Shown here piece after piece: positions 7,380 through 43,402 of a DNA stretch of 64,000 bases. Made by a program: the position numbers and the translations under genes. Positions within the stretch are counted from its first letter, which is position 1; the number at the start of each line of letters is the position of its first letter. The notes below the pieces were generated by a model, which did not search any database, was not told where the DNA came from, and saw nothing but the letters and a program-made list of their open reading frames with translations. Source of the stretch: Paramacrobiotus metropolitanus (lineage: Eukaryota > Tardigrada > Eutardigrada > Parachela > Macrobiotidae); contig NW_026570271.1 of the NCBI RefSeq assembly GCF_019649055.1, forward strand, positions 434,001 to 498,000. Reading direction: 5' to 3'.

Positions 7380-7463
7380 GCAGTACTCTAGCTAATCAAG
7401 GGCTTCTTTTGTAGTTCTGAGCCTTCAACATTGAATCAAGTGGATACTAACTACATTGCTGCC

Positions 7464-10400
7464 ATGGATCATGATCTCATGGATAACGACAACGACTTTG
7501 ACGACTACGGATATAATTTCGATGAATTCTACAATCCTTATTCACCGCCTGGTAGTCCATTCAACTGGTCGCAAGTCTACACACCACCTCAATCGCCAGC
7601 CACACAATCCGATGAAGCGCTTGAACGTATGGAGGTTTGTGTGGAAGACGTTTTGGATGCAGGCGAAAATATTCAGTCAGGTGGTGCGGAATCGATGGAC
7701 GTCGATACGCAGGATAACGACGACGATATGGAAGAAGCTATCGTGGCAAATCATGTTCCGTCCCAGGAATCACTCAGTCGACCCGTTCAGGAAGATCCTT
7801 CTGTTGACGTTACTGAATCAGGTCAATCCATACCTTCGGAATCGGACTGGTCTAAAGTTTTTACCCTCCAGAAGATAAGTCACAACCACAACAAGAAGTT
7901 CAATCACCATCAGTATTTCTACAGTTTGAAGATCAAGTCACTGCCGCAAGAATTTGATACAGTAACTTCCCCAGAAGCGCTGCCTGAAGTGTTTAAGGCA
8001 GTCTGGAAAGCTTGCTCAAAAGATTTGCTGCCGGACGATGCTGTTTGCTTAACATTGTTTACCCGGACTATGGAGAATCCAATGCACCTGAAAATGCAAT
8101 TCTTCAGCAACTTTAACCCGCGCGACCTGACAGAGATGGTAATGAAGATCAACTCGGGTGGACTTTTCTGCATTGATGATTCTCTGAGGCTTGTTATTCA
8201 ACGTACGGTCATCCCCGCCGGAGGTGCTGCTGTGCGTAAGCATATTCACTCGACACACGATAGGAAACGGTTTGCGCGCTCCATTGTGCAGGTTGATGTC
8301 GGCTATAATTTGTGTTTGCCTGCATGCCTTGTGCTCGGACGGTTTTTTCACGATCCTTCAAAAAATATACGAAACTGGAAGCAACTGACTGATAAAAGAG
8401 ATAAGAAACTGCAAGAACTCGCAGCGGAACTAGTGGAAGAAGCGGGACTTACTGTCGGAACAAAGTTTTCCTTAAACGACATTGAACGTTTCCAAACAAC
8501 TGTCCTTAAGGGGTTCCAGATCAAAGTTGTTGGAGCCGAGCAGGGGAACATCATAATTGCCAGGTGTCCCGAAAGGCAAGGGAAGCTGAAAACCATCTAT
8601 CTTCTGTACGAAAATGGCCATTTCGATCTGATAACCAGTCCATCCAGGTTTCATCGACGTGGGTATTATTGTGAGTTGTGTGACAAGGCATATGTTCAGA
8701 AAGAAAAGCATCGATGCCAAGGTAAATGCACCAAATGTTATCGCCCAAGAGAGGTATGCGTCGAGCCTGAAGAAACTAGCAGAATCTTGTGCACGGATTG
8801 CAATCGTGAATTCAATAACAACAAGTGCTATGATCTACATAAGAAAGCACGCAAAAACGGTCGGCCATACTGTACGGAATTGTTCATTTGCCCAGATTGT
8901 GGAGTTTTTGTAAGTCTACTCAATCGGAAATTCAAGAAGCACGAATGTGGTGAGATGTTTTGCCATCCATGCCAGGAGTGGGTAGATCAAGCCACGCACA
9001 AGTGCTATCTTAAACCGTTGGAGCCTCGTACCCATGGATCGAGTTCAAATTACATCTTTTTCGATTATGAAACTCACTTGGACGCGGAGGGGGTCCATCG
9101 GCCTTGTTACGTCGTGGCACAATACACAAGTGGAGAAGAGTTTCGCTTCCCTCCAGATAATGTGCCAATGGAAGGTTACGACGTTCAGAAAGAGTTTGAC
9201 CAATGGGTTTATTCAGAGCAACATCGTGGATACACCTTGATTGCGCACAACTTTCGCGGTTACGACGGACACTTTTTACTTTTTTACCTTTTGGAAAACA
9301 ACCTCAAAGGAGTTGAAGTCATACGACGCGGGAGTCAGCTTCTTGATCTCCGTTACCCGGCTTTGAAAATCAGGGCGCGCGACACTCTTAACTTTGTCAT
9401 GACGAAATTATCCAATTTTCCGAAGGCTGTTGGTCTGACCGATTGCGAATCCAAAGGCGATTTTCCTCATCGCTTTAACAAGCCGGGAAACTGGGACAAA
9501 GTGCTTCCGTTTCCCGCTGTCGATGATTACATGGTAGGCGGCTTGAAGCGAGCGGATCGCAGAAAGTTTGAACAGTGGCATGCAGAAGAGAAGGAAAAGA
9601 AAGGTAGGTTTTTTTTTTTAATATCTCATGTTTTAAAGGGGTTTTCGATTTTCGACTGGAAATGTCCGACTACTGTGCAAGGGACGTTACTTTACTGCGG
9701 AAATGTGCTCTCCAGTTCCGTGAAAATTTCATCAAGATGACCAACGTCGACCCGTTTCAAAACGTTACCATAGCTTCCGCCTGTCAAACGTATTACAAGA
9801 CCAAACTGCGGAAGGCTAAAGAAATTGCCGTGATATCTGCAAACGGTTATCAGCCGAATCGAAAGACAAGCGCCGAAGCAACGCAGTGGCTTGAATGGAC
9901 CAGCATGAGTCATCCAAACATCGAGCACGGTAGGAATGGTAAAGAGCGGAAAATCAATCGCTACTTCGTAGATGGATTCGATCCGGACACAGACAGTGTA
10001 CGAGTATAACGGCTGCGTACATCATGGGCACCCGGAATGCACCAATGAAGATGACCGGGCACCGTTCTCTTTGAAGAAAATGTCAGAAGTGTACGAGCAG
10101 TGGATACGTAAGAAACTCTTTTTGGAAGGAATGGGTTATAATGTGGAAGAGAAGTGGTCTTGCGAGTGGTTACGTGAAAGAAAGGATCCGGATATACAGC
10201 AATTCCTCCTAAACCAGAATCTACGTGATCCATTGCAACCGCGCGATGCATTCAAAGGTGGCCGTACCAACGCTTCGTGTTTGTTCAGAGAAGTCCAAGA
10301 TGATGAGCAGATTTTGCATTACGACATCGTGTCCTTGTACCCGTTCGTCAACAAGAAAGCTGAGTATCCAATTGGACATCCGAAGATCATCGTGTCCAAC

Positions 10401-11778
10401 TTCAAACCTGTGACGGAATATTTTGGCTTGGTCAAATGCAAAGTTCTTCCACCTGCAAGAATTCGATATCCTGTGTTGCCTGCCACCTTCAACGGTAAGC
10501 TTGTGTTCACTTTGTGCCGGACTTGTGCTGAAAACGGAATAAACGACTACTGTTCGCATTCCGATGAGGAAAGAAGTTTTGAAGGAGTATTTTGCACTTC
10601 GGAATTGCACATGGCGCTGCGACAGGGTTATCAAGTGCAGGAAATTTACGAAGTTTGGCATTGGAACGAAAAGCGTGCGGGTCTATTTCAAGAATATGTG
10701 GACAAATTCTTGAAGGAGAAGTTGGAAGCAAGTGGATTCCCCGCCGGCTGTACAACGCAACGTCAAAAAGAGTTGTATGTTCAAGAAGTTGCCTTGCGCG
10801 ATGGAATTCTGCTAGACATTGATCGCATTGAAGATAATCCCGCAAGACGTGCAGTTGCCAAGTTGATGTTAAATTCATTTTGGGGCAAGTTTGGCCAAAG
10901 AGACAACTTACAGCAGACGGTGTTCATCTACTCCGTGAAGCAGTATCTGGATTTAGTCAGATCCAAATCTGTTGATATACAGAGCGCTCACGCCGTGACT
11001 CCAGAGTGCATGATGGTTACTTACTCGCAGAAAGATGACTACAACGAAGGCAGTAACTGTGCGAATCTTGCCATTGCCGCTTTCACTGCCAGCCATGCCC
11101 GCATTCAGCTTTTCAGAACCATGGCCAAGCTTGGACCGCGCCTTTTGTATTTTGACACAGACTCTGTCATCTTTGTTCACAAAGAAGGCAAATGGCTTCC
11201 AGAAGTCGGTAATGGACTTGGTCAATGGAGCAGCGAGTTGAAACCAGATGAATATATTGTACGCTTTGTCTCCTGTGGTCCCAAAGTCTACAGTTATGAA
11301 ACAAACACCGGCCGGATTCAGCTGAAAGTTAAAGGCATGACTCAGAACGGGTACACGGAAGATGTCTTGAACGATGATCTGCAGCGCACTGGAGAGAACC
11401 TTGACTTTGACAAGTTGACCGAAATCCTGAAAGGCGCTACAATGCCGGTACGTATCAGTTATGTTATTAAATTTCTTTTAGTTTCTTATTGATTCCAGTG
11501 GTTTAACACAGGTTGTGTACCCTGAGTACATTAAGCGGAACTTTAAAGCTCAAGAGATTTCCACTGTCCGCTTGAAGAAGCATCTGCGCATGGTGTACGA
11601 CAAACGGGTTTTGTTGGAAGATTTCACCACAGTTCCGTACGGTTTCAAGAAGCCGGTAAGGAAGACACTGCTTGAGCAGACTATAGTTCAGATGTCTATG
11701 GAAGTTAAATGCTGTGCGACACTCAGGATATCACACTTGTAATTCATTATATGTACACAGGACCCGCAGCCGGCGTGA
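7464..11778 (+). CDS. Protein-primed type DNA polymerase B (four exons, one frameshift)
   Basis: Replicates the element; Polinton polymerases belong to the protein-primed B family. The proposed start is the ATG at 7464, though the frame is open from 7415. An acidic N-terminus is followed by a cysteine-rich zinc-binding region (about 8660-9010). Exonuclease motifs are FFDYETH (9057-9077), HNFRGYDGHF (9247-9276) and YCARDV (9668-9685). Polymerase motif A is HYDIVSLYP (10318-10344), motif B LMLNSFWGKFGQ (10862-10897) and motif C YFDTDSVIF (11149-11175). Introns fitting GT-AG and frame are 9604-9638 (35 bases), 11448-11511 and 11656-11760. With the last one the protein ends at TGA 11776-11778, overlapping the next ATG. 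A frameshift lies at about 9995 inside a run of AC/AG dinucleotides: the GFDPDTD side and the VYEYNGC side are in different frames. Without repair of that lesion no full polymerase is made. Confidence 0.93.
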
Positions 11779-12185: not shown

Positions 12186-12418
12186 AAAAAAACCTCATCT
12201 GTTTCTGTGTTAGGTTGATCTGGCACAGACAATCTGACACGGTTGTAGTTGAGGTATCACAGACCGATGACAGATATCTACATGCCAGTGTTCACTGTTC
12301 TGAACTGTCAGAAGCATATGATGAATGCTATGACTTACAGTATGCGGGTACTGACCTATCGGGTAAAAAGGCATCCTTACTTACTCTAATGTTTTTTTTC
12401 TCCACACATTCTGCTAAA

Positions 12419-12949
12419 ATGGTTGTCCCTGAGGATCTTAAGCCTACGTTTACTCACGTTCGTCGTGACTATCAGGACGACGTGGTGATTTATAACTCGA
12501 ACATGGCCGATGTGAATAAGCGCATTGAAACTTTCTTCGGGAATCTTAACCATTTTCCTGGTTTGGACATCTATTACATGGCTGACGCCGGCTTCTACCA
12601 TATTGGTGAAGGCCGCCTGCATTGTTTCACATGTGGCGTAGGACTTGAAGGCTTGTTCGAAGATATTAACGTACACCACGCTAGATACAGCTGGTCATGC
12701 GAGCACTTGAACTATCTTGCCAGTAAAAAGTTTATCAGAAATGTGTTGGACGTCGATGAACAGTTGAGTGTATGGGCTAAAACTCAATGGAATCGAAAAG
12801 CGTTGATATTCCGTTGTGGGTGTGATACCGATGCAGAAGATCATTCTGATGGATCGCACACTAATTCCGATATGGAACTGGACAATCTGCCGGATGATGC
12901 AGTAGTTGTGGCTGTTGGTGGAGTAGATATCTGTCCTCCATATCCTTAA
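12419..12949 (+). CDS. BIR-domain protein, single BIR (IAP-like)
   Basis: A 176-residue protein with one baculovirus-IAP repeat. The core MADAGFYHIGEGRLHCFTCG lies at about residues 56-75, followed by the zinc ligands His (HHARYSW) and Cys (SWSCEHL). BIR domains bind zinc and can inhibit caspases or their activators; virus-type elements may use them to keep the host cell alive. The C-terminal third is acidic (DTDAEDHSDGSH and following) with no RING finger. The frame is open back to 12215, but ATG 12419 gives a compact BIR protein and is preferred. The variable first half of the BIR (no clear WP motif) makes caspase binding uncertain. Confidence 0.75.
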   Translation: MVVPEDLKPTFTHVRRDYQDDVVIYNSNMADVNKRIETFFGNLNHFPGLDIYYMADAGFYHIGEGRLHCFTCGVGLEGLFEDINVHHARYSWSCEHLNYLASKKFIRNVLDVDEQLSVWAKTQWNRKALIFRCGCDTDAEDHSDGSHTNSDMELDNLPDDAVVVAVGGVDICPPYP

Positions 12950-13090: not shown

Positions 13091-13523
13091 ATGGATTTCC
13101 CCGAGCTCAAGTATCAGTTTCAGGACGGAAACGTCAAGTGTTACGAGATCACCAGCAAATCTTCACTGTGGTACGATACTATCGGCAACACTGTCCTTCT
13201 GGCCCGCAGCCCTGCCTCTGATGGACTCATGACTGCCAGACAGAAGGGCATCATACTGGACTTACCCGCTATCAACAATCTTCTCCTATTGCTGAAAGAA
13301 GGAAAAATCCGACATGGTTTGGATGCAGCATGCATTGGACAATCCCCCGAAGTATACACATGTTAAGGATGCTGACGATGCTGTCATCGACATCAAGTTG
13401 GCTTACCATACCGCTTTTGGACGCACGATTTCCATCTCCCTTGAAGGGGCCTCAATCATGCTGGGCTACCGGAATTTCCGAAGTGTGTGCAAGTTACTCA
13501 CTCAACTCGTTCCTAAAGCTTAA
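13091..13523 (+). pseudogene. PC4-like two-module protein, paralogue 2 (frameshifted)
   Basis: The first module (residues 1-75 from ATG 13091) has strands ending in RQKGIILDLPAINNLLLLL, which matches the Arg-Lys-Gly-Ile-x-Leu plus helix end of PC4/p15 domains. After about 13335 the similarity continues in the next frame (PPKYTHVKDADDAVIDIKLA, then a GRTISISLEG segment) and ends at TAA 13521-13523. The break falls at GCAGCATGCATTGG, which looks like a short GCAT duplication. As it stands the first frame ends at 13366. The TBP-like gene follows 305 bases downstream. Confidence 0.55.
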
Positions 13524-13551: not shown

Positions 13552-13633
13552 GAAAAAAAAAAAAGGGCGTTGCCCCAAATCTGCGTTATTTTTAGCTTGT
13601 CTACGGCCAGGCTGAAAGTAACGTGGTTTTGGG
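13552..13633 (+). promoter_or_regulatory. Shared intergenic block, copy A (upstream of TBP-like gene)
   Basis: An A-run is followed by a hairpin GGGC-GTT-GCCC (13565-13575), then CAAAT, TTAGCTTGTC (13592-13601), CGGCCAGG, and TTTTGGG (13627-13633). Copies B (15006-15078) and C (23108-23184) keep the same order and nearly the same spacing. The block stands between the stop of one gene and the start of the next, 195 bases before the TBP-like ATG. It could be a promoter element, a 3'-end signal of the gene before it, or both. Confidence 0.7.
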
Positions 13634-13754: not shown

Positions 13755-13793
13755 TATAAAATGACCATGAAGCAGGGCATCAGACATCAGTTT
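13755..13793 (+). promoter_or_regulatory. TATA box and initiator of the TBP-like gene
   Basis: TATAAA at 13755-13760 is followed 33 bases later by TCAGTT (13788-13793), a match to the arthropod-type initiator TCAGT, at the spacing typical of animal core promoters. The ATG of the TBP-like gene is at 13828, so the predicted leader is about 39 bases. This suggests that the gene for a TATA-binding protein is itself driven by a TATA promoter. Confidence 0.55.
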
Positions 13794-13827: not shown

Positions 13828-14797
13828 ATGATTCACCACTTCATAACCGTTGTTGTCTTTGACTGCAAGTTTGATCTGCAGAAAATTGCATCGTCCACCA
13901 AGTGTACATCTGTGAAGGATTTTAAGGCGCTTAATCTGACATCCTATGATGGTAGCTATTGTCAAGTTTTCAGTTCAGGCAAAGCAATCATCAATGGCGG
14001 CACTTCAGAGAAAGAAGTACGCACATTGTTGAAGCGATACCGGTTCCGTTTAACACATCTTGGCTATACTGCCAATGTCGTTAGCAAGCGCACTGCGAAT
14101 ATTATGGCTACGTACGACCATCAGCATCCGATCAACTTGTATAAGTTCGCGAAAGCACAGAAGTTGTATTATGAACCGGAGTTGTTTGACGCGGCAAAAT
14201 GCGATACGCCGATTTGGGTATAACCGTGAAAGTTTTGGTTCCGGAAAATGTACGATCCTAGGCGCCAAGAGTGTGAAAGCAGTGGATATTTGCATTGACC
14301 GTCTTCGAGCCACACTGCCATCCAATCCACCGCCGTCTCCTGACTTCGATGTAAGTGCCGTGCGCAAGAAGCGCAAATCCATCAATTCTGACATTGATGA
14401 ATTCGTGCGAGTCTTGGAAGCAGAGATGATGCGTGAATCAGAGGGCCGCACAACAGTTAGTCAAGGCACACAGACCACACCCCGAAAGCGAAAACGAACC
14501 ATTCCCCAAAAGATTGATGTAAGCCAAACAGTACAGCAGGAGAAGTGCAACGACATGGAAGAATGGCTGCATGCAATTGAGAAGTGCGGAAAAGAGGAGC
14601 CAGCCCTTACGCTGACACAGTGCGATAAATTGGTTGCGCAGTGGGGAAAGGATTCCAAAGAAACTGGCAAAGTCGCCATGGAGCACGAGGAGAAGTTGGA
14701 AGAACCCGTATTCACTCTAACACAGTGCGAGAAATTAGTTGCACATTGTCCAAACAGATCAAGTGATGCCTTTACTTGGCCAGAAGACATCTTCTAA
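13828..14797 (+). CDS. TATA-box-binding-protein homologue (one frameshift) with repeat-bearing tail
   Basis: TBP binds the TATA minor groove and nucleates the transcription pre-initiation complex. Both halves of its saddle are visible. Half 1 has CKFDLQKIA, VKDFKALNL and CQVFSSGKAI, then LGYTANVVSKRTANIM. Half 2 has HPINLYKFAKAQ and YYEPELF, then, in the next reading frame, ESFGSGKCTILGAK and a closing helix. Phe residues fill all four positions that kink DNA in TBP (KDFKA, QVFSS, ELFDA, ESFGS). The frames switch at about 14205-14222; unrepaired, the first frame ends at 14223 and loses most of half 2. The tail (about 14330-14797) has basic patches (RKKRKS, PRKRKRT) and two copies of TLTQCxKLVA (about 14611 and 14719). 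An upstream A-T-rich start at 13801 lacks an ATG, so 13828 is chosen. The TBP assignment is firm from sequence; the role in element transcription is inferred. Confidence 0.85.
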
Positions 14798-15005: not shown

Positions 15006-15078
15006 GAGAGCTGAATGCTCCAAATCGGTGGTAGTTTTAACTTGTCTGCGGCCAGGTTGAATCTACTGCTGTTTTGGG
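15006..15078 (+). promoter_or_regulatory. Shared intergenic block, copy B (upstream of ATPase gene)
   Basis: Same order as copy A: A-run, hairpin GAGC-TGAAT-GCTC, CAAAT, TTAACTTGTC (15037-15046), GCGGCCAGG, TTTTGGG (15072-15078). The hairpin stem differs in sequence from copies A and C (GAGC/GCTC against GGGC/GCCC) yet still pairs. The ATPase ATG lies 38 bases further on. Confidence 0.7.
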
Positions 15079-15115
15079 AATTTGCTCATTAAGCCATTCT
15101 ACAAATCTGAATCAC

Positions 15116-15775
15116 ATGCAACCATCAAAATACTGTTTTTGGGAAATGGAACGTGTAAATTTTGATTTTCGCTTCAAAACACCATGCTCGGTGTATGTGT
15201 GCGGCCCAACAATGTCTGGTAAATCCACTTTGATAATGGAGTTACTTAAAGCACCGCATGCACACTTTTACCCGTGTCCGAAACGTATAGTATACGCGTA
15301 CGGAACTTGGCAGAATTCGTTCAAAGAATTTCCTTCGTCAATTGAATTAGTCTCTGACTATAACAAACTGTTCGATGATGGATTTTTCAACCCAAATGTC
15401 CCAACGTTACTAATACTTGACGATCTAATGGAAGAATTAGCCAACAATGTAAAAGCCTCAACACTTTTCACGCGAGATGTGCACCATAAGAATGTCACTG
15501 CTGTATTTATATCGCAGAACTTGTTCAAACAAGGGAAAAGCATGCGCGACATTGCTTTGAATGCCCAGTACTTGATTTTGTTCAAAAGTGTGAGAGACAT
15601 CCAGCAAATTCGTGTGCTGAGTCGACAACTAGGAATGAAACATTTGGAAAATGCGTACAAAAAGGCCATTAAGAAACAGTACGGCTATTTGATTGTAAAT
15701 TTACGACTTGAAACTCCGGACAACTTGCGACTTCAATCACATATTTTTGCTCATCGACGCATTTATACAGAATGA
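15116..15775 (+). CDS. FtsK/HerA-type DNA-packaging ATPase
   Basis: Drives DNA into capsids in viruses with double jelly-roll shells; it is one of the core Polinton genes. The 219-residue protein has a Walker A motif CGPTMSGKST (about residues 27-36) and a Walker B motif TLLILDDLM (about 96-104). ISQNLF (about 134-139) sits where a sensor/arginine-finger region is expected. The start is the first ATG of the frame; upstream codons to 15074 are open but lie within the promoter-like block. The stop overlaps the next ATG (ATGA). The gene is intact. Confidence 0.92.
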   Translation: MQPSKYCFWEMERVNFDFRFKTPCSVYVCGPTMSGKSTLIMELLKAPHAHFYPCPKRIVYAYGTWQNSFKEFPSSIELVSDYNKLFDDGFFNPNVPTLLILDDLMEELANNVKASTLFTRDVHHKNVTAVFISQNLFKQGKSMRDIALNAQYLILFKSVRDIQQIRVLSRQLGMKHLENAYKKAIKKQYGYLIVNLRLETPDNLRLQSHIFAHRRIYTE

Positions 15776-16092: not shown

Positions 16093-17250
16093 AGACATTC
16101 GTGCTCGTTACCGGAGAGCGAATACAATACGGTGATGAAACCGTGTCCAACACCATGGACAAAGGCCTATCAAATTAGCAGTGAGATTGAGAGGCATTTA
16201 ACACAAGGTCCAAAGACCAGTGCCGAACACAAACTTGTTGATTCATCAAATCCAATGCCGCAGACATTTGTACAAACCCCAAACCATGCAGATATTCCGC
16301 CTGTGCCAGCTAGTTCACGTGTTACTTATGATCACGCAGCACAAGTGGATACCGCACCGCTATTTGAATATGTTGCTGCGCCCAAACCTTTCATGGCAGA
16401 CAGTCAAACACAATCGGACCCTATACAGCCAACAGTTCATTACATCGAAAAGGATCCTGTTTATTATCCTGTTCCAGTCCCGCAGTATATCAGTGCACCG
16501 GGCAAGTCTGTTGTGCGGCATGTTTATAAACCTCAACCTAAAAATAAGCGGATATCTAAGCAGAACCGTGCGAGAAATGCAGCCAGTACAATGCGTCATC
16601 CAAATGTGTCTACGATTACCAAAGGACCTGCATTGCCTGCCATCACATACGGCAATCAAAATCCGCAGCTGGTGTATCAGAATCCTCCATTGCTTCCAGC
16701 TGGCAATCCGTACTGGGAAATACGCAGTCCTTCGCCTACATTGGCTTTGGCTGACAACACGTCTGTACCAAATGTAGAATGGCCGGACAGCGATGATGAT
16801 TTATCATCTTCGTATGCATTAGCTCCCGCAGCCGCAGTACCGTCTTTAACGCACGAGCAGCCGCAGTTGCCCAGCAGTGCAAGTCGAAAAGCAATCACAT
16901 ATGCGCAGCCACAATTGCCGGCGTCTCACCAACTGGAGGCTTTGACTTATGTGCAGCCTAGAATTGCAGCACCTGCTGCCAGAAAAGCACTTACATATGA
17001 GCAAGCCCGTTTGCCAGCACCTGCGGCCAGAAAAGCACTTACATATGAGCAAGCCAGTTTGCCAGCACCAGCTACCAAGCCAGCATTGACATATAGGGCG
17101 CCAAATAAAATTTCGGTCCCGGCAATCTTATACAAGCCCGATGAAATGTTTACAGCACGCAGCAAGAAAGCAAGAAACGATAATCAGCCTCCAACAAAGA
17201 AACATAAAACACAGCATCAGACAGGTAGTGGTTGGATCTCTTATGCATAA
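16089..17250 (+). CDS. Polinton small virion-type protein with 16-residue repeats (frameshifted start)
   Basis: The expected start is ATG 16089, overlapping the previous stop. That frame reads about 22 residues (MKTFVLVTGERIQ...) and then needs a frame change at about 16155-16165 to continue as KAYQISSEIERHL, a segment typical of a short Polinton protein. Without it, translation could only begin at 16132. The body is rich in Pro, Gln and Ala and low in complexity. Its C-terminal half has five or six tandem units beginning LTYEQ or similar followed by LPAPAARKA (16849-17090), then a basic tail (RSKKARN, PTKKHKTQ). A structural or DNA-binding role in the particle is possible; no enzyme motif is visible. 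The stop overlaps the integrase ATG (TAATG). Confidence 0.55.
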
Positions 17251-18316
17251 TGGTTTCACTGGATGATCTATATTTGGATCCCTCCAATCCGGGCAGTTTG
17301 GGAGGAGTGGAACGTCTTTACACGGAAGCCAGTAAACACGGCTTTACAAAGATCAAGTTGAACGATACTTGCAGTCAAAAGACACCTATACCGAGCATCG
17401 ACCGTACCGCTCAAAATTCAAACGGAGAAAAATTATCTGTGTCGGTGTAAACGATCAACATCAAATTGATCTTGCCGATATGCAGAAATTTCACAAAGAG
17501 AACGACGGAGTAAAGTATCTGTTAACATGCATTGACTGTTTTTCGCGATATGCATGGGCCATTCCTGTGAAATCAAAGAAACCAAGTGAGATTGTTCGAG
17601 CGTTGGAAGAAATCTACAGAGACTTACGTACACCACCGCTGCGGTGTCAGAGCGATAATGGAAAGGAATTTACAGCCAAGGTAGTGAGAGATTTTCTTCG
17701 CGACTGTGGAGTTACTTTCTTTACCACAAAGAACGATGACATAAAGTGTGCAATGGTGGAGCGCTTCAACAGAACACTCAAGGACAGACTTTACGTTTAC
17801 ATGACAGAGAAACAGACATACCGATACCTGGACGTGCTGGACGATGTGGTCACAGCATATAATAATAGCGTGCACTCTGCTACCGGTTTTGCGCCAAGTG
17901 AAGTGGACGTGCAAGAAGCTCGCGTGATACGGGGTAAAATGCTTGAGGAAGATGAAATGGATACAATTAAACCTCCTGGTTTTGCTGTTGGAGATTATGT
18001 GCGACTTGCCAAAAAGAAGCTTACGTTTGAGAAAGGATATGAAACAAACTACACGGAGGAGCTTTTCAAAGTGATAAAAGTTATTAAGAAAGGGAAGCAG
18101 TGGTTGTATGCAGTTGAAGATTTGTCAGGTGAAGAGGTTGACGGCTTGTTCTATGGTCAAGAGCTGTCGAAATTTATTCTGACTGAACGAACAGGTCATA
18201 AAATATCACGCATATTAAGGACGAGAAAGCATAAGGGAAAGGAACAATATCTCGTGCGATGGTATGGTTACGGACCAGCTTATGATTCCTGGGAGGACAA
18301 AGATAATCTAAAATGA
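17250..18316 (+). CDS. Retroviral-type integrase with C-terminal chromodomain (one frameshift)
   Basis: Inserts the element into host DNA. The N-terminus starts MVSLDDLYLDPSNPGSLGGV, as Polinton integrases do. After a single-base loss at about 17353 the frame continues from QSKDTYTEHRPYRSKF. The catalytic triad is D in HQIDLADM (about 17459-17482), D in CQSDNGKEF (about 17644-17670) and E in AMVERFNR (about 17752-17775). The D-E spacing is 34 residues. The C-terminus (about 18202-18313) is a chromodomain: ISRILRTRKHKG, QYLVRWYGYG, DSWED. Chromodomains can steer integration to particular histone marks. The stop overlaps the penton-like ATG. The frameshift would prevent production of the full protein. 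Confidence 0.92.
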
Positions 18317-19290
18317 GTTTTTACATGTCATTACCAAGTTCTGCATCCAAGACAATATTCCCGGATAATCGTCCTGGCTGCTATACGACACAACTTATCC
18401 GTTCAATTGACTTGGACGGAGAATGGGAGGTTGGACTTTCTGAACTAATTCTCCCGCCGATGGAAATGCGTTTTCAGTCAGATCTAGAGGTTGGAATAAG
18501 CAAACCATATATGCCGACTTTTGAAGTGCGTACGCTCCCAAAGAAATTATTCTATAGAGATGAATATGATTTAATCAGTAGCGTAAACGAAATGCTCACA
18601 TACAATCCGCGTTTCGCTCGCAATTTGGACTTTCGCTACAGCCACCACGACTTGATTAACAGAGAGCCTAAAGACTTACCCCAAACAACGGAAGACGAAA
18701 AAAAGCAGTATGAAAAACTCCCTTTTGCAGCCATCAAAATTCAAGGAGATCATGGACAGCTTTTCGTGCGCGGTGACAGTCAAGTTATATTTGAAGGAGC
18801 GGAGTATACACGTGCCCTAGGATTACACAATAATTATCCTTATATGGGGATTGAGAAAGAACCTTTCGTGCTACGTCCACCCAAACATTGCCGCATTGTG
18901 AACATCTACTGTGATTTAGTGGAATATCAACTCGTAGGGAATGCAATGGTCCCTGTTCTGCGCACATTGTGTACCGAAGCCAGTTCGTACGATGGTACCG
19001 TTCTGCGTTTCGAGAATCCGCATTACTTGCCTGTTCAAAAACAGACATTTAGCACAGTGGAGATTGAAGTGACTGACGACAGAGGAGAAGAAATACGATT
19101 TCATAGCGGAGTGGTGATTAAATTACATTTCAGACCAAAAGATATTAACCATGGTACTGAAAGAGCACCATTTCAGCGAATCTCGCTACACAGATTTATT
19201 TGCCAAACAGCATGGCTTTGGTATGCCAAAATACCGAGGCGCCCCAGTTATTGGTGGCAGCTTTTGGGGACGGGTGATTGGATTTGCTAA
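18313..19290 (+). CDS. Penton-like minor capsid protein
   Basis: Single jelly-roll vertex protein of Polinton-type particles. The frame is intact from an ATG overlapping the integrase stop. The N-terminus (YMSLPSSASKTIFPDNRPGC) and the segment WEVGLSELILPP at about residues 38-49 are characteristic of the family. A VVIKLHFRP strand near residues 271-279 normally closes the domain. The last 45 or so residues run in a different frame across the start of the next gene (19151) and look unlike capsid sequence, so the natural C-terminus may have been shorter. Confidence 0.85.
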   Translation: MSFYMSLPSSASKTIFPDNRPGCYTTQLIRSIDLDGEWEVGLSELILPPMEMRFQSDLEVGISKPYMPTFEVRTLPKKLFYRDEYDLISSVNEMLTYNPRFARNLDFRYSHHDLINREPKDLPQTTEDEKKQYEKLPFAAIKIQGDHGQLFVRGDSQVIFEGAEYTRALGLHNNYPYMGIEKEPFVLRPPKHCRIVNIYCDLVEYQLVGNAMVPVLRTLCTEASSYDGTVLRFENPHYLPVQKQTFSTVEIEVTDDRGEEIRFHSGVVIKLHFRPKDINHGTERAPFQRISLHRFICQTAWLWYAKIPRRPSYWWQLLGTGDWIC

Positions 19291-19603
19291 AGGTCTATTT
19301 AGCAAAGCTGCACCTTACATTTCAAGCCTTGTAACCAAAGCACAACCTCATATGAAGACAGTTGCTTCTAAAGCAGTGGAGTCAGTCATAGACACAGCCG
19401 TGGAGAAAGTTAACAAAAAGCTTAAAGAGTCCGCAGGCGAAGAAATGGGCATTAAGGGAGGACGCAAACGACGACGACGACAACGAGTGCAAGGACACAA
19501 GGTCAAAACTCGCAGACAAGCAAAACGCGTGACTAAACGTAAAGGGACAAGAAAACGAACCAAGCGACAGTTAGCCATCGACGCAATCGCCAACAGATTT
19601 TGA
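19151..19603 (+). CDS. Minor capsid/core protein with protease-type site and basic tail
   Basis: 150 residues, intact. The N-terminal part (RYTDLFAKQHGFG, then GAPVIGGSFWGRVIGFAKGL) is the Gly-rich segment followed by an amphipathic helix seen in Polinton minor proteins, often compared with adenovirus membrane-lytic protein VI. The C-terminal third is very basic (KRRRRQRVQGHKVKTRRQAK) and would bind DNA. Between the two halves stands IKGG followed by R (about residues 101-105), which fits the adenain consensus (M/I/L)xGG-x. The element protease could therefore separate the membrane-active and DNA-binding halves. The start overlaps the penton-like frame by 140 bases. Confidence 0.65.
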   Translation: MVLKEHHFSESRYTDLFAKQHGFGMPKYRGAPVIGGSFWGRVIGFAKGLFSKAAPYISSLVTKAQPHMKTVASKAVESVIDTAVEKVNKKLKESAGEEMGIKGGRKRRRRQRVQGHKVKTRRQAKRVTKRKGTRKRTKRQLAIDAIANRF

Positions 19604-19611
19604 CGACAATA

Positions 19612-20957
19612 ATGGCGATGATTGAAGCAAATTCGGAGCCTTCGATGCTTCTGGAAAACCATCTCTTTTACTTACCGGCAACACTGACAGAGAGATGGAA
19701 CACAAAGGATTACGATATTGGACCCGCTCAAGCGACATTTGACTCAGCAAACGATATTGTTTTTACTATTGCTCCCTCTCTGAGCGAATTAGTGAGTTTG
19801 GCGGATATTAGATTTAAATGCGACTTGCACGTTACGAATAAAGACGGCGCAGAATTGAAAGATTCGGACTGCTTGGCACCAATTAACAACATTCTGCACA
19901 GCCTGTTTCAGTCGGTTACTGTTACCATCGGTGGTCGGAATGTCACGGATACAAGCACGCTGTATCACTATCGTGCATACCTAGAATCATTGCTCGGTTT
20001 TACGGATCAAGCTCAAAAATCACAACTTACCCTATCGGGATTTGTATTGGATAATAACTGGGAGAAAAAGCCTGGTCATGTTACAGATGCAACAACAAAA
20101 GTGAATCGTTTCTGTAGCGATGGGTCAAACAACGGGATTGGCTACAGAATATGAAACCGTTGCAGTTGTCAGGCAAACTTCACTGTGACCTGTTTCAACA
20201 AGATAAGCCACTCTTGCCCGGAGTCGAGCTCACAATTAAAATGGTGCGGAACAAGAACGAAGTGGTTTTTGTTGCTGACAGTGATAGCAACGCCCCGAAA
20301 CTGGTGGCTATCAGAAATCCGCGCTTGCAAGTAAGAAAATATGAACCTTCTCCGGATTATTTTACAGCCTTGAGCAAAGAACTACTCAGCACCACTTCAA
20401 AATATCACATTGAGCGTGTGGTAATGCGTGAACATACATTGATTCTTGGTCAGCAACAAGCTGTTTGGTCCAATATTGTTATGGGTCAGCTGCCGAAAAT
20501 AATGATTTTTGGCATTGTACCAAGCCGATCGTTTGCTGGTGAATACGGATCATCCCCATTTAACTTTACACATTTCAACTTGACCAACATCGTGGCCGAG
20601 ATTGACGGTCAGCTGTTTCCCACACAAGGCTACAATCTAAATTACGAGAAGGGCAGTTCGATACAAGGCTATGAAGGTCTGTTGGATACACTTGAACGTC
20701 TCAACGAGGGAGCGGGTGAATTGCCAATAGACCGTGAACAGTACAACAAGGGTGGATTCTGCCTGTACGGATTTGATTTTACGCGTGGACACACAGGACG
20801 AGGGGCAATGTCCCTGTCCCGCCATGGGAATTTGAATATACATATGAAATTCGCCAAAGGTTTAGAAGAAAATGCGGTGTGTGTAGCCATGTTGGTGTTC
20901 GATAACGTGATCGAAATTAACAACAACCGTCAGGTTATCTTTGATTTTGCACCATGA
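19612..20957 (+). CDS. Hexon-like major capsid protein, double jelly roll (one frameshift)
   Basis: Forms the shell of Polinton-type particles. The proposed start is ATG 19612 (MAMIEANSEPSML), nine bases after the previous stop. Jelly roll 1 lies in the first frame, including LHSLFQSVTVTIGGRNVTD (about residues 93-111). That frame ends at TGA 20152-20154. The second frame picks up at 20151 with LQLSGKLHCDLFQQDKPLLP and runs through jelly roll 2 to 20957. The join lies inside a conserved part of the family, so a one-base deletion at about 20145-20150 is more likely than two separate genes, although the ATGA overlap could allow re-initiation. The stop overlaps the protease ATG (ATGA). Confidence 0.88.
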
Positions 20958-21451
20958 ACAACCTGCGAATCCAAGCCGCATTACAGAAGGACCCAAAAAT
21001 CCGAGATATTTTTGTGGGAGTGTATTCTGCAAACACACTACCGGACAAAGAATTTCCTGGTGGTTACATTGTCAACACAGAGGTAGACGGCAATCGCGGC
21101 GAGCACTGGGTGGCATTTTACTGTGTATCACCAGGCATACTAGAAGCCTTCGATTCTTATGGTAAAAATCCGGCCGTATACTCACAGCACATCAAGAATT
21201 GGATGGGTGACGACTTTCTCATTGTATCTAACACGGAGCGGCAAAGTGTAGACAGCACAGTCTGCGGTCAGTACTGCATGTTCTTTGTTACGCTACGTTG
21301 CTACGGATACTCATACAAGGATGTCATGTCAGCACTAACCAAGCATAAAGGAGTGAACGATGTGTTCGTATGCAAGTTCATCAACAAGTTTTTCAGTATG
21401 CGAACACGAGTAAAAGACCGCAACTTTATAAATGGACTTATCGCAAATTAA
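20954..21451 (+). CDS. Adenain/Ulp1-like cysteine protease
   Basis: Virion maturation protease. 165 residues, intact. The catalytic His is in RGEHWVAFYC (about residues 48-57), the Asp in EAFDSYG (about 66-72), and the Gln/Cys part in DSTVCGQYCMFFVTLRCYGY (about 100-119). Its length is normal for Polinton proteases. The start overlaps the capsid stop (ATGA) and the 3' end overlaps the next gene by 20 bases. Confidence 0.9.
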   Translation: MNNLRIQAALQKDPKIRDIFVGVYSANTLPDKEFPGGYIVNTEVDGNRGEHWVAFYCVSPGILEAFDSYGKNPAVYSQHIKNWMGDDFLIVSNTERQSVDSTVCGQYCMFFVTLRCYGYSYKDVMSALTKHKGVNDVFVCKFINKFFSMRTRVKDRNFINGLIAN

Positions 21452-23641: not shown

Positions 23642-23728
23642 ACAAGATGACAGATGTCTGCCTGCATTTGCTTCCTCTATCCATCTAGGAACGGCTATGG
23701 CAGATAACCGGTAAAACACTTCTTGAAA

Positions 23729-24319
23729 ATGGATATGTCAGACGTAGATAACCGCTGCAACAGCTTTGTCAACTGGCCATGTACTGAGTATTCCATAGCA
23801 CGACTGGCGTTTGATGGATTCTTTTACAAGGGCGTGTACGACGAAATTCACTGTGTGTATTGCGGCCATGTTATGGGCGATTGGCCCAATTCTCGGTATA
23901 AGCCTTTCTATCGGCATCTGTTTGAGCGTCCGGATTGTCCTAATTCACAGGCAATGGCTGCTGGTGAGGATGACTTCGGTTCGCAGCATGATTTGCTTTT
24001 CGCTGCGCCAGAAATGCAAGATTACAAGACGCGTTTTGCCAGTTATGCCGAATGGCCTGTAAGCAAGCAGCAACATCCACAAGACATGGCACACGCTGGA
24101 TTCTATTACAAAGGAAATGGTGATTGCGTTCGTTGTTTTCACTGCGGCGGCCGAATTCACAACTGGGAAGCAACTGATGTACCTTGGGAAGAACATGCTC
24201 GTTGGTATCCAAAATGCCCGTACCTTACGGAGACGAAAGGAGCGGCATTCATTGAAGAAACTCAAAAGAAATACGAAAAATCTGTTGTGTCTTGTTGTCT
24301 GTGTAGCACTGATGTTTAG
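23729..24319 (+). CDS. IAP-like protein with two BIR domains, RING lost or truncated
   Basis: 196 residues from ATG 23729. BIR 1: CNSFVNWP, LAFDGFFYKG, CVYCGHVMGDW, then His (YRHLFERPDC). BIR 2: FASYAEWPVS, MAHAGFYYKG, CVRCFHCGGRIHNWE, EEHARWYPKCPYL. All zinc ligands are present in both, and the second is close to caspase-binding cellular BIRs. After BIR 2 a short linker (QKKYEKS) leads to CCLC and a stop at 24319; in cellular IAPs a RING ubiquitin-ligase domain starts just there. I see no RING core downstream, so the RING seems lost. Likely anti-apoptotic. AATAAA at 24395 may be its polyadenylation signal. Confidence 0.88.
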   Translation: MDMSDVDNRCNSFVNWPCTEYSIARLAFDGFFYKGVYDEIHCVYCGHVMGDWPNSRYKPFYRHLFERPDCPNSQAMAAGEDDFGSQHDLLFAAPEMQDYKTRFASYAEWPVSKQQHPQDMAHAGFYYKGNGDCVRCFHCGGRIHNWEATDVPWEEHARWYPKCPYLTETKGAAFIEETQKKYEKSVVSCCLCSTDV

Positions 24320-39184: not shown

Positions 39185-42100
39185 TTAACCTTCTTCAACT
39201 TCGGAACATGTCTCCTGATTCCTGTGCCAATGACGCATTCGACACATTACACAATCATCTTCAGCGCCCTTAATGTCATTTTCCATGTCCGGCCAATAGA
39301 ACTTTTGCTCATCATTAAGGTATTCGATCATTGAAATACACAAATCGTTTCTGTGATGCACAAGGCGGTCATGCGCTAATTTCAACAGTACTGGACGCCA
39401 CTGGTATGGAACGAATATTCGCTTCTCATTTCCATCGGGCGGTTTATGGTACAACACATCAGAACTGGAGGTGGTCAAGCAATTGACTTCAGCACGCACA
39501 AACTTTGTAGAAGTACTCGCATATTGCGGATTCTTGCAAAATCTTAGCCATTTCTGCGTATCGGAACACTGAGACTGCTGAACTCCCCAGAACTCAGGAC
39601 TTTCCATTTCATCATACGACGGACTGAAAGTTGGGTCATCTTCGACATTCGAAGTCGGTCTCGTCCAACTAGGCTTATCAAAATTTCTGGCTGCTTCTAA
39701 CAAACGAGTTTCTCTATTACGAGCAATTTCATCTAAAATCGTCTGGTACTCTTCTGCACCGATACAAATGTTAGTCTTGGCTCCATTGTCACCAGAGTCA
39801 CTGTCGCTCTCATCGTTACTGCTATCTTCACTGACACCCTCGATGCACTGTACCTGAGCACTTACTGTACCTTCCACAATATCGTAGTGGACTGGCTCAC
39901 CCCCGCAAACTTGCTGTTCTTCCGTATCCGAAACATTGCTTACCGGTTCTTCTTCCTCTTCAGAACTTGACACATCATTTTCACCCAGGCATTCATCTTG
40001 CTGCCGTAAACTTGCAACATACCGTATATCATTTAAAAACTGTTCTTCTATACTTTCCAGTCTTTTCAACTTTTCACGAATTTCAACTAATACCTGATCT
40101 AACGTACTGGAATTGACCGACATCACATTTTGCGGTGCAAATGCGTTATTTACACCCCCGCAAACTTGACTACTACCGACACTCTCACGTACACTTTCCG
40201 TTTGTACCTCCATGTGCATCATCGTCGCCGATTGGGAATACCCCCGCAAACTTGACTCAGAACCGGGTTCCCTTACTGAATGACTTACCGTATGAGTACA
40301 TACTTCTGCTGGCATAACGTTCTTCATCTGCTTGGCTGGCCACTGTTTGACTGCAGAGCGAAGTTGCATAGCGAAAACTTCAGGCGCGTCTTGTGCCAAT
40401 GCACAGTGTACCATTTTGTACGGCACCAATTCCGCTTCTTCACAAATTCCAATACGTTCAGTGCGCATCAGCGCTGGCAAAGAAGGACCGATTCTTGCAC
40501 GTGGATGAAGGAAAGGATCAAACTTATGTGCACGAATGATGTCAGACATTTTATGCGTAGTACGATAAAACATGTTCGTTCTTACCGTAGGATCTCTGCG
40601 TGAAGGACGCAACGACATAGTGTTAAAATCAAAAATTAGCGATTTAGTAGTCAAAAAGTCCATACCGAGAACAATGTGGTCTCGATTAAGGGCGGGACTG
40701 ACTAAGCAAGCGTGTTCATAACCATTACCGAAAAGTGAAATGTTAAGAAGCGCGCAAAGTGGATCGACCACTTGCGAGCCGTACGCGCCTTCCACCAGTA
40801 AACCTTTCATGTGATCAGGGCATTGGAAAATGTATAAATCCATTTCCTTTGCAAGTTTGTAAGGAATGACAGAGATACTGGAACCAGTATCAATCATTAC
40901 TTTAACTTTTTTACCAAAAAATGTTAACGTCGTATAAAGTGCTTGTGCGTCCAGAGTGGGCAACAGACAAACCTCATTTGTTACAGGATATTCACTGATG
41001 TCGACTTCTGAGCTCTTACTCATTTCGTAATGTTCAAAATATGGCTTAAATTCAAGAAAGTTAACCTGCGCACTAAACCGTCTTAACATATCATGCGTAG
41101 GTTCGACCAACCGGGGATACGCTAACGGTTGTTGACATCCTAAAGACGGATGTAAACTGTGACACTTGTAACAGATTTCTCTACCGTTAGGTAATCGCCA
41201 TTTCTCTCTCTGAATCTGATTCTCATCAAACTGCTGAGCATTTTGCTGACCAATCTGATTATTACCGAAATTACCATTAAATCGCTGTTGGTTATTAAAT
41301 CCACTGTTATTACCAAAATTTCCATTACGATTAAAGTTATTACCACGATTAAAATTTTGACCATTGTTACCAAAATTACTGTTCGGTTGACCGTTACCAT
41401 TTTGTGGCATGCCAACATTCACATTAACAGGAACCGGCGCTGGCGGTACGCCTGCTAAAATCTGGGACTGCTGATCGTAGTACATGGGCACACCGTGCGG
41501 CATTTGCACTGACTGCCCATTACTCCAATTTCCTGAGTTATTATTAAAAGACTTTTGAAAGTTTGACCGATTGTTATTGTTAAAATTTCCGCGAGTATTC
41601 GAATTTCGAAATTCAAAACTTTTTTGTGGAAGAGAATTAACACTGTTACTTCCGAGAGACGCCTGCATTTTTTCCAGTTTCTGCAACCGCTCAACCATAT
41701 CATCGACTGTCTTAATGTTTTGCGGGTACAACTGAGTGTACCAGCTTTCTCGATTCGATCTCAAACCATCCAAAAGGATACCTACGCGCTCATCTTCGGG
41801 TAATCTCAGTTCTTCAAACCAGCGACAAAAACTATCAGTATAAGTATCTACTGTATCATCATCACGAAAGATACGAGAATTCATTTCACGACGCATTTCT
41901 GCTGTGGTTACGGCCACATTAAAATGTTTCAATAATTTTGGGCGGAAAAAATCTTCCCAACTTTCATTCGGATTTTCATCGAAAAGTTTTTTAAACCAGG
42001 ATGCAGCATTACTACGAAGTGATGCTGCCACTGCTCTACAAGTTCTCTCGTCATCCCAATTGTTAGACAATATGCACATGTCAACACTGGTAAGCCAATT

Positions 42101-43396
42101 ATCGATGGAACCAGACTTTTTCGTGCCTTCATACGGCTGCAAACGCATAAAAGTATCGCTTCTACTAGTCCTATCACTTCTATCATTTTTTACTGCAAAC
42201 GCTTTGGCCATCTCAACCAACGCTTTGTTTTGAGATTCCATTATAAAACGAATGTTAGGGTCAATTGCCGGTGTTGCCGGTGCATCACCATGCACCGATG
42301 GCGCGGGACTGCCAACATTGCCATCATGCAGAAACATATCGTCTGGCGGGGGAGGTAAAAAGTCATCGTTTATGTTACCGTTAACATACTGCTGTTGCTG
42401 TGCGTACACACCTGGTTGGTGGTACTGTACTACGTTTTGCGGCGGCACTGGTAGGTACATATTTTGATTGTACACCGGCTGCCTAACTTCCTGAGGGACT
42501 ACATTTTCAACAAATGGACCGGGATTCAAAACACCCCCGCAAACTTGATGTGGCACAGTATTCACGTTAATCTGAACATGTCCAGAAAGTGTGCCAGCTG
42601 CAGTGCCACTGTTATTTGGCATACTGCTGCCTTGCCTAATATCGTAGTGCGATGGCTCTGCATGCACTGCATTATGCGCGGGCGGCTGCGCTGAGCGAGG
42701 CTCACGCACCACAGTTTCACAAACACGACTGACTGATCCTGCTACACCCCCGCAAACTTGAGTACTTCCACTATTTTCATTAACACGACTCAAAATAGAT
42801 GCCGAATGGTCACCTGAATTTACTGGCACAAAGCCTTGCGACTGACTCGACATATGCGAAAAACTATCTTGGGCCGGCGGCCGACTGAAAACCGCATTAC
42901 CTGAACCTACTGGTATTTCCGAATCAAAACATAAATCTTTTTCGAAATTTTGTTCTCTGTAACAGGCTTTGGCTTCTTTAAGCTCCTGTTTCAACTGTTC
43001 ATTACGCTGCATTAAATCTCGAATTTCTGAATCCTTACCGTCAATCCTAAGTCCGGTTGATTTGACCAGCTTATCTTTTTCTTGACACGTCGCATTTAGC
43101 TGACGCTCCCTGGCTAAAGCTGCTTTTAAATCTATCTCCGCGACAATTTTCGCACTTTTCTCTGCCTGACAATTAACTTTTAACTGCTCAATTTCCAAAG
43201 ACAACTTTTTCTCCGCTTCTTTGTGCGCTGCATACGAAGCTACCTGTTTGGACTGTACCAAATTACCATGAACTTGCTTCAAATTTTCAAACTGTGAATT
43301 CGCCTGATTTAAAGCGATTTCCAGTTCCTGATTTTTCTGCATCGTTTTTGCGTAATCAACATTATCGGCTTCAAGTTCCTTAACCTGTTTTCTCAA
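39185..43396 (-). CDS. Gag C-terminal part, aspartic protease and integrase zinc-finger remnant
   Basis: About 1,403 codons, in the same frame as the upstream Gag frame and separated from it only by a TGA. Residues 1-130: coiled coil. About 140-380: Pro/Asn-rich spacer with QVCGGV repeats. About 415-565: retrotransposon capsid domain (SIDNWLTSVDM, NAASWFKKLF). About 600-735: Asn/Gly-rich (FNNNNRSNF, NFNRGNNFNRNGNFGNN). About 740-752: CYKCHSLHPSLGC, a short zinc knuckle-like motif. About 835: protease motif VMIDTGSSISVIP with a later IVLGMDFL. About 1040-1200: acidic spacer. About 1345-1390: HDRLVHHR...CVMC, the HHCC zinc domain of an integrase, after which the protein ends. Between protease and HHCC no RT or RNase H motif exists. 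The start used here is arbitrary; the part is probably expressed by passing the TGA. Confidence 0.88.
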   Translation of the reverse strand: MRKQVKELEADNVDYAKTMQKNQELEIALNQANSQFENLKQVHGNLVQSKQVASYAAHKEAEKKLSLEIEQLKVNCQAEKSAKIVAEIDLKAALARERQLNATCQEKDKLVKSTGLRIDGKDSEIRDLMQRNEQLKQELKEAKACYREQNFEKDLCFDSEIPVGSGNAVFSRPPAQDSFSHMSSQSQGFVPVNSGDHSASILSRVNENSGSTQVCGGVAGSVSRVCETVVREPRSAQPPAHNAVHAEPSHYDIRQGSSMPNNSGTAAGTLSGHVQINVNTVPHQVCGGVLNPGPFVENVVPQEVRQPVYNQNMYLPVPPQNVVQYHQPGVYAQQQQYVNGNINDDFLPPPPDDMFLHDGNVGSPAPSVHGDAPATPAIDPNIRFIMESQNKALVEMAKAFAVKNDRSDRTSRSDTFMRLQPYEGTKKSGSIDNWLTSVDMCILSNNWDDERTCRAVAASLRSNAASWFKKLFDENPNESWEDFFRPKLLKHFNVAVTTAEMRREMNSRIFRDDDTVDTYTDSFCRWFEELRLPEDERVGILLDGLRSNRESWYTQLYPQNIKTVDDMVERLQKLEKMQASLGSNSVNSLPQKSFEFRNSNTRGNFNNNNRSNFQKSFNNNSGNWSNGQSVQMPHGVPMYYDQQSQILAGVPPAPVPVNVNVGMPQNGNGQPNSNFGNNGQNFNRGNNFNRNGNFGNNSGFNNQQRFNGNFGNNQIGQQNAQQFDENQIQREKWRLPNGREICYKCHSLHPSLGCQQPLAYPRLVEPTHDMLRRFSAQVNFLEFKPYFEHYEMSKSSEVDISEYPVTNEVCLLPTLDAQALYTTLTFFGKKVKVMIDTGSSISVIPYKLAKEMDLYIFQCPDHMKGLLVEGAYGSQVVDPLCALLNISLFGNGYEHACLVSPALNRDHIVLGMDFLTTKSLIFDFNTMSLRPSRRDPTVRTNMFYRTTHKMSDIIRAHKFDPFLHPRARIGPSLPALMRTERIGICEEAELVPYKMVHCALAQDAPEVFAMQLRSAVKQWPAKQMKNVMPAEVCTHTVSHSVREPGSESSLRGYSQSATMMHMEVQTESVRESVGSSQVCGGVNNAFAPQNVMSVNSSTLDQVLVEIREKLKRLESIEEQFLNDIRYVASLRQQDECLGENDVSSSEEEEEPVSNVSDTEEQQVCGGEPVHYDIVEGTVSAQVQCIEGVSEDSSNDESDSDSGDNGAKTNICIGAEEYQTILDEIARNRETRLLEAARNFDKPSWTRPTSNVEDDPTFSPSYDEMESPEFWGVQQSQCSDTQKWLRFCKNPQYASTSTKFVRAEVNCLTTSSSDVLYHKPPDGNEKRIFVPYQWRPVLLKLAHDRLVHHRNDLCISMIEYLNDEQKFYWPDMENDIKGAEDDCVMCRMRHWHRNQETCSEVEEG
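39898..42760 (-). repeat. Five internal copies of a polypurine-tract-like 16-mer
   Basis: Plus-strand (C/T)ACCCCCGCAAACTTG at 39898-39913, 40152-40168, 40239-40254, 42532-42547 and 42745-42760; on the minus strand CAAGTTTGCGGGGGT. The polypurine tract at 38572-38587 reads CACCCCCGCAAACGAG. In the protein most copies give QVCGG(V/E). Confidence 0.85.
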
Positions 43397-43402
43397 CTTG
43401 TT

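Follow-up and report, generated by a model that had tools for sequence, protein, structure and literature searches.

The 64,000-nucleotide stretch of the tardigrade Paramacrobiotus metropolitanus genome analysed here (contig NW_026570271.1, positions 434,001 to 498,000; "the window", to which positions without a contig name refer) contains a decayed Polinton with a gene for a homologue of the TATA-box-binding protein (TBP). This gene belongs to the Polinton and not to the host, and it represents a real, widespread and selected TBP of tardigrade Polintons, whose function we infer from sequence, gene neighbourhood and promoters. Polintons are regarded as dependent on their host for transcription; the presence of the gene suggests that some of the apparatus for transcription initiation is supplied by the elements themselves.

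In the window copy the gene is split between two reading frames, here called pieces A and B (Table 1). Its identification as a TBP homologue in the first-pass annotation, made from the letters alone, is borne out by the Pfam profile PF00352 (curated cut-off 22.9 bits), against which piece A scores 47.1 bits and the open relatives found elsewhere in the genome 70.8 to 133.8 bits; piece B alone gives a weak match under the cut-off (14.4 bits, E 0.035). The two direct repeats that make the single saddle of a TBP are both present. The C-terminal tail of piece B, which has basic stretches and carries a motif around TLTQC-x-KLVA twice, is also found in the open relative L109. The annotation had further held that a frameshift cuts this copy, which is indeed broken; the damage is not limited to it, however, for the copy in C4 has an identical broken layout (96.4% identity over 4 kb) and the frame is also lost near the same spot in C49 and C187, so that a break unique to the window copy was rejected. 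Given the 3.6% difference between the C4 and window copies over those 4 kb, duplication may have multiplied the broken copies, or they may receive help in trans. The frame-losing copies lie at C4:72951, C49:115032, C51:447828 and C187:4110.

Genes of this kind are abundant in the genome (169.8 Mb in 533 contigs searched). Among the best 150 of 493 candidates from a Pfam TBP search, the ones that were scored, 138 matched stretches are stop-free and two are the host gene. One element TBP used as a query brings the total to 151 distinct loci on 103 contigs, host locus included. A further 58 come from a search whose query was an open relative of the window gene, and which also recovers the window gene itself at C51:447828-448749, for at least 208 TBP loci on 126 contigs with the host gene excluded; since only the best candidates were scored, all these counts are lower bounds. 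Nine close relatives (in C201, C44, C17, C133, C29, C74, C62, C82 and C147), 83-100% identical to the query of that last search, are open through both repeats, as are three further relatives at 48-51% identity (C19, C27 and C10).

Polinton genes lie beside TBP in all 20 regions of 9.9 kb that were hand-picked from the 121 element loci of the Pfam search (in L023 the ATPase only), and the gene order takes at least three forms. TBP may lie between the protease gene and a convergently oriented polymerase gene, point away from a divergent ATPase gene or, as in the window, stand ahead of the ATPase. Lineages L129, L130 and L131 have TBP directly ahead of the ATPase, with an integrase in two of them and a polymerase end in one within the fetched stretch; the two genes adjoin in L023 and L028 as well. 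As the 20 regions had been picked by TBP, a fair test has to start from the capsid genes instead. A search with the L025 capsid protein gave 89 capsid-gene loci, and in 83 of them a TBP lies no more than 10 kb away (median distance 3.4 kb; about 1.6 loci expected by chance); one of the six misses, in C49, has a TBP at 6.8 kb by the open-relative search, leaving five without. TBP is thus a near-constant neighbour of the capsid genes in this genome's Polintons. The initial assignment of the gene to the element stands on these 20 neighbourhoods and 83 loci, and the outcome that the first-pass annotation had set against it, that related Polintons lack the gene or that it is a stray piece of host DNA, clearly fails on the same counts.

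The element TBP is under purifying selection. Among 122 pairs of open TBP domains, 42 have a synonymous divergence (dS) of 0.05-1.5, and in all 42 the ratio of nonsynonymous to synonymous divergence (dN/dS) is below 0.5 (median 0.15); between L109 and L116, both of the window lineage, it is 0.059.

The residues that contact DNA, whose roles are those assigned in work on yeast TBP, are partly retained and partly changed in a consistent manner over the 36 element rows of our alignment. The Phe99 site is Phe in 35 rows and Tyr in one, the Phe116 site Tyr in 32 and Phe in four, and the Phe190 and Phe207 sites are Phe in 36/36 and in 35/35 readable rows, respectively. All four intercalating phenylalanines, as first reported for the window gene, are seen in three of the four open window-lineage copies (L109, L116 and L124), while L110 has Tyr at the second. 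The loss of the DNA-intercalating phenylalanines that marks TRF2/TBPL1 is not seen, all four sites being aromatic in all readable element rows. What sets the element proteins apart from cellular TBPs, besides the prevalence of Tyr at site 116, are the Thr124 site (Asn in 35, Ile in one), the Thr215 site (Leu in 34/34 readable rows), the Val122 site (Thr in 31, Ile in five) and the Val213 site (Asn in 30/35). Sites 124, 215, 122 and 213 are Thr, Thr, Val and Val in 13/13 animal rows; Asn124 and Leu215 occur in none of the ten archaeal rows, and hence in none of the 23 cellular TBPs sampled. Asn159 is retained in 35/36 rows and Asn69 in 32/35 (His in the window copy, L109 and L116), and Glu188, a contact to TFIIB, in 33/36. 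With the Phe sites and Glu188 kept and the Thr and Val sites altered, the element TBP can be expected to insert into DNA and bend it, probably to face TFIIB, and to read the minor groove differently; as Asn124 and Leu215 are absent from the sampled cellular TBPs, its preferred core promoter is probably a different one.

The host's own TBP lies at C4:406165-406662, with a core frame of 161 residues that shares 85-89% identity with the 120 best relatives listed, many of which come from named animals; the identity between element and cellular TBPs is about 26-30%. A single-sequence protein search with the open copy L006 returned 32 relatives. The tree made from 28 of these (minus four partial or host-named) and from 36 element, 13 animal and 10 archaeal TBPs has 87 rows and 165 columns; it was built without protist, TBPL1, mirusvirus and giant-virus TBPs and without eleven partial open frames, and its bootstrap was unsettled. 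The element and database TBPs form one clade (100/99), the animal TBPs, host included, another (100/98) and the archaeal ones a third (97/95), and the grouping is unchanged when the tree is thinned to 65 rows with the longest element branch removed (100/99, 99/96 and 94/97). A capture from the host, as initially suggested, is unsupported for the present host, because the element TBPs are a deep clade of their own; any cellular capture would have taken place long ago. An approximately unbiased (AU) test does not reject a tree in which the window lineage joins the cellular TBPs (p 0.096), which speaks against one origin and makes two captures possible; the Asn and Leu changes common to the window lineage and the other elements favour a single origin. 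The single-sequence protein search made with window piece A in place of L006 gave none at E 1e-3 (two candidates), three scans of IMG/VR viral contigs (P0001, alignment A1 and cellular alignment A3) gave no close relative of the element TBP, and none was found in phage records.

As to function, we think it likely, if well short of certain, that the Polinton-owned TBP is expressed early and, with a probable preference for a different core promoter, starts element transcription through host TFIIB and RNA polymerase II. Early expression would come from a promoter with TATA box and initiator that the host machinery can read, directly ahead of TBP in the window lineage and by way of the preceding gene in others. 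The protein would then occupy element promoters, bend their DNA in the manner of TBP and recruit host TFIIB and RNA polymerase II, assisted in many elements by a PC4-like coactivator encoded less than 2 kb away, and element genes poorly served by host TBP, perhaps the virion genes, would be turned on. The early suggestion that the element may direct its own initiation is strengthened by the PC4-like neighbour, the selection and the promoter layout of some genes. More tentatively, and at somewhat under an even chance, the retuned TBP and a PC4-type coactivator may constitute a partial pre-initiation complex of an animal Polinton lineage. Both would be expressed early from promoters with TATA box and initiator that the host can read, after which the element TBP would open a second promoter class for virion genes; this would be a temporal transcription switch in integrating elements of about 20 kb, evolved separately from the one in herpesviruses.

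The window TBP is preceded by a TATA box and by TCAGTT (Table 1), which we take to be an arthropod-type initiator, and TATA boxes also stand ahead of TBP in the window-type lineages L109, L116, L110, L124/L129 and L131. In 46 de-duplicated upstream regions of 160 nt, drawn from 85 script-set starts, TATAWAW occurs in eight (2.2 expected; maximum of seven in 500 shuffles), and six (0.05 expected; shuffle maximum of one) combine a TATA box with an initiator lying 24-36 nt beyond it: those of the window TBP, the PC4 gene in L014 and L020, and the DADWF gene in L020, L021 and L025, which include related elements and so are not six independent events. The DADWF gene, which in many elements precedes TBP in an overlapping frame, is conserved, and its product has neither a Pfam match over the cut-off nor a meaningful match in PDB. 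Both TBP and the ATPase are preceded in the window by a copy of the 20-mer TTGTCTRCGGCCAGGYTGAA (two occurrences; 0.02 expected); as an element-wide promoter it was rejected, no match within five mismatches being present in the other element loci fetched by then and the only other such matches lying in the host TBP coding region. Similar stretches ahead of the same two genes (13566-13616 and 15010-15061) each contain an A-run followed by a short hairpin, as judged by eye, and then TTTTARCTTGTCTRCGGCCAGGYTGAA; they were not seen in the other element loci fetched by then.

The PC4 domain is part of a two-part protein whose L008 version matches PF02229 at 34.1 bits (E 2e-8; cut-off 25) and whose L017 version falls under the cut-off (22.3 bits, E 9e-5); compared with PDB, the alignment of the PC4-like proteins matches PC4 only. 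Relatives are found near TBP in 12 of the 20 regions, and nine of the ten Pfam PC4 matches in the whole genome lie less than 2 kb from a TBP; the strongest, in C41, is presumably the host gene. Likeness to PC4 was also considered for window open reading frame (ORF) 23180 and, on a weak resemblance, for the small gene ahead of TBP, and in both cases was unsupported by hhalign (probabilities of 1-3%).

Besides the relatedness of the promoter cases, several observations weigh against an element TBP acting at its own promoters. The window copy is itself broken; L130, of the window type, has no TATA box within 130 nt of TBP, and seven of the eight TBP starts, all those of other lineages, have none directly ahead. 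TATAWAW is absent from all 24 upstream regions of virion, ATPase, ORF16132 and polymerase genes, which says little, as many of these overlap the preceding gene, and k-mer counts, made with no control, gave no common late-gene motif in 23 upstream regions. By profile, no PC4-like gene is present in eight of the 20 regions or in the window element. Glu186, another stirrup residue, is retained in just 12 of 36 rows, and the close pair L016-L017, at a dS of 0.04 that is under the limit used, has a dN/dS of 0.70.

Viruses often block host transcription, and the element TBP could be a decoy that lowers it by occupying TFIIB, TFIIA or host TATA boxes. The retained fold and the mostly kept Glu188 would suit such a role; neither so constant a change of the minor-groove residues nor the pairing with a PC4 coactivator would be needed for it, and we regard it as unlikely. 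TBP is also a DNA-bending protein, and its gene adjoins the polymerase gene in many elements, as might be expected if it bent element DNA for replication, integration or packaging with no part in transcription start; the conservation of Glu188 in the stirrup facing TFIIB and the PC4 neighbour both point to transcription instead and leave this architectural role quite improbable.

The remaining alternatives concern what the gene is. A recent or repeated capture of host TBP, or a host paralogue merely situated beside Polintons, draws on the unrejected AU grouping, and is very unlikely in view of the separate, well-supported clades, the Asn and Leu substitutions common to the window lineage and the other elements, and the contrast between the identity of the host core to its listed relatives and that of element to cellular TBPs. 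The broken state of the window copy would fit a stray host pseudogene fragment or a chance similarity, a reading to which we give almost no weight, as it is refuted by purifying selection and capsid-gene linkage and has the number of loci and their mostly stop-free frames against it as well.

Mirusviruses are large plankton viruses with another capsid type. TBP is reported from 59% of their genomes as against 0% of those of Nucleocytoviricota (PMC10132985), and the likeness to the elements described here is that of TBP as a frequent gene. Beta- and gammaherpesviruses likewise encode a TBP-like late factor (EBV BcRF1, KSHV ORF24, HCMV UL87) that works with host RNA polymerase II and, joined by five further proteins of the virus, acts at TATT promoters (PMC4922670, PMC7498053, PMC8360532); the likeness is that of a virus-type element encoding a TBP-like protein, and the difference that no TATT rule is shown for the element TBP. 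In the Cymbomonas study, TATA-binding proteins are described as sporadic in elements that lack polymerase or double jelly-roll capsid genes and that its authors relate to mirusviruses (PMC10675990). The literature searched, with small reach into subscription papers, yielded no report of TBP in a Polinton/Maverick, and the main texts of PMC11071296, PMC11071308 and PMC10120064 mention no TBP, TATA or PC4. Compared with the cellular TBPs of eukaryotes and archaea (PF00352), the present one, about 30% identical, is encoded by a mobile element. With a TBP selected across several gene arrangements and bearing fixed contact changes, the question whether a small, virus-like integrating element changes the choice of core promoter becomes testable; some 200 natural variants in one animal genome are a large set for the study of DNA reading by TBP, and they offer a possible stepping stone in the acquisition of TBP by DNA viruses.

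The window element is a Polinton by its gene content, since genes for polymerase B, integrase and an adenain-like protease, as in Polintons/Mavericks and adintoviruses, are present on the same strand with a putative packaging ATPase and a candidate capsid module (Table 1); with the BIR gene, all are on the forward strand, and the first-pass placement of TBP between element genes of its own orientation was correct.

Table 1. Features of the TBP gene and the surrounding Polinton in the window
Feature	Position	Strand	Remarks
DNA polymerase B, protein-primed type, first frame	7431..9740	+	PF03175 E 8.2e-8
DNA polymerase B, second frame	9972..11492	+	PF03175 E 1.8e-28
BIR-domain protein	12215..12949	+	PF00653 E 2.3e-5
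Small element gene preceding TBP (first part; reading frame lost)	13091..13366	+	relatives in L130, L131, L028
TATAAAA box	13755..13761	+	73 nt ahead of TBP start
TCAGTT	13787..13792	+	32 nt after TATA box
TBP piece A	13828..14220	+	first repeat and most of second (to PELF); ends at out-of-frame stop
TBP piece B	14234..14797	+	other frame (14054-14797); end of second repeat (FGSGKCTILGAK...) and C-terminal tail
Packaging-type ATPase	15074..15775	+	FtsK/HerA-like by position and P-loop; Pfam AAA matches under cut-off
Retroviral-type integrase with chromodomain	17369..18316	+	PF00665 E 1.7e-14, PF00385 E 2.1e-9
Conserved virion-module gene (minor capsid by position)	18313..19290	+	no Pfam match over cut-off
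Major capsid protein candidate	19600..20957	+	overlapping frames 19600-20154 and 20151-20957; identity by position
Adenain-like cysteine protease	20954..21451	+	homologous to L025 protein matching PF00770

Homologues of the conserved virion-module gene lie beside TBP in many of the fetched elements. The capsid candidate, a single frame in L025, is a gene conserved at the expected place, with no Pfam match and no meaningful sequence match in PDB. The L025 protease matches PF00770 at 22.2 bits (E 1.3e-4; cut-off 21.3), and against PDB the protease gives weak matches to S273R of African swine fever virus (E 0.009) and to adenain (E 0.33). No convincing pair of terminal inverted repeats was seen in the decayed window copy, where repeats bearing indels would escape and the ends are undefined.

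In the virion module (18313-21451) the stop of one gene lies over the start of the next, with an overlap of a few bases, like a coupled cassette, and direct repeats of 48 nt lie within an ORF between ATPase and integrase (16945-17088). The Polinton is flanked by retroelement frames of the reverse transcriptase and gag/protease/integrase type (588-1682 and 39185-44629). Besides the BIR gene near TBP, whose domain is of the inhibitor-of-apoptosis type, a second frame at 23723-24319 is BIR-like in appearance, and BIR-like frames recur in L003, L028, L130 and L131. In the public gene model P0032 (and in L003) a TBP start is fused with a BIR protein under an XIAP-like name; the public models of this genome thus appear to treat TBPs and BIR genes of the elements as host genes.
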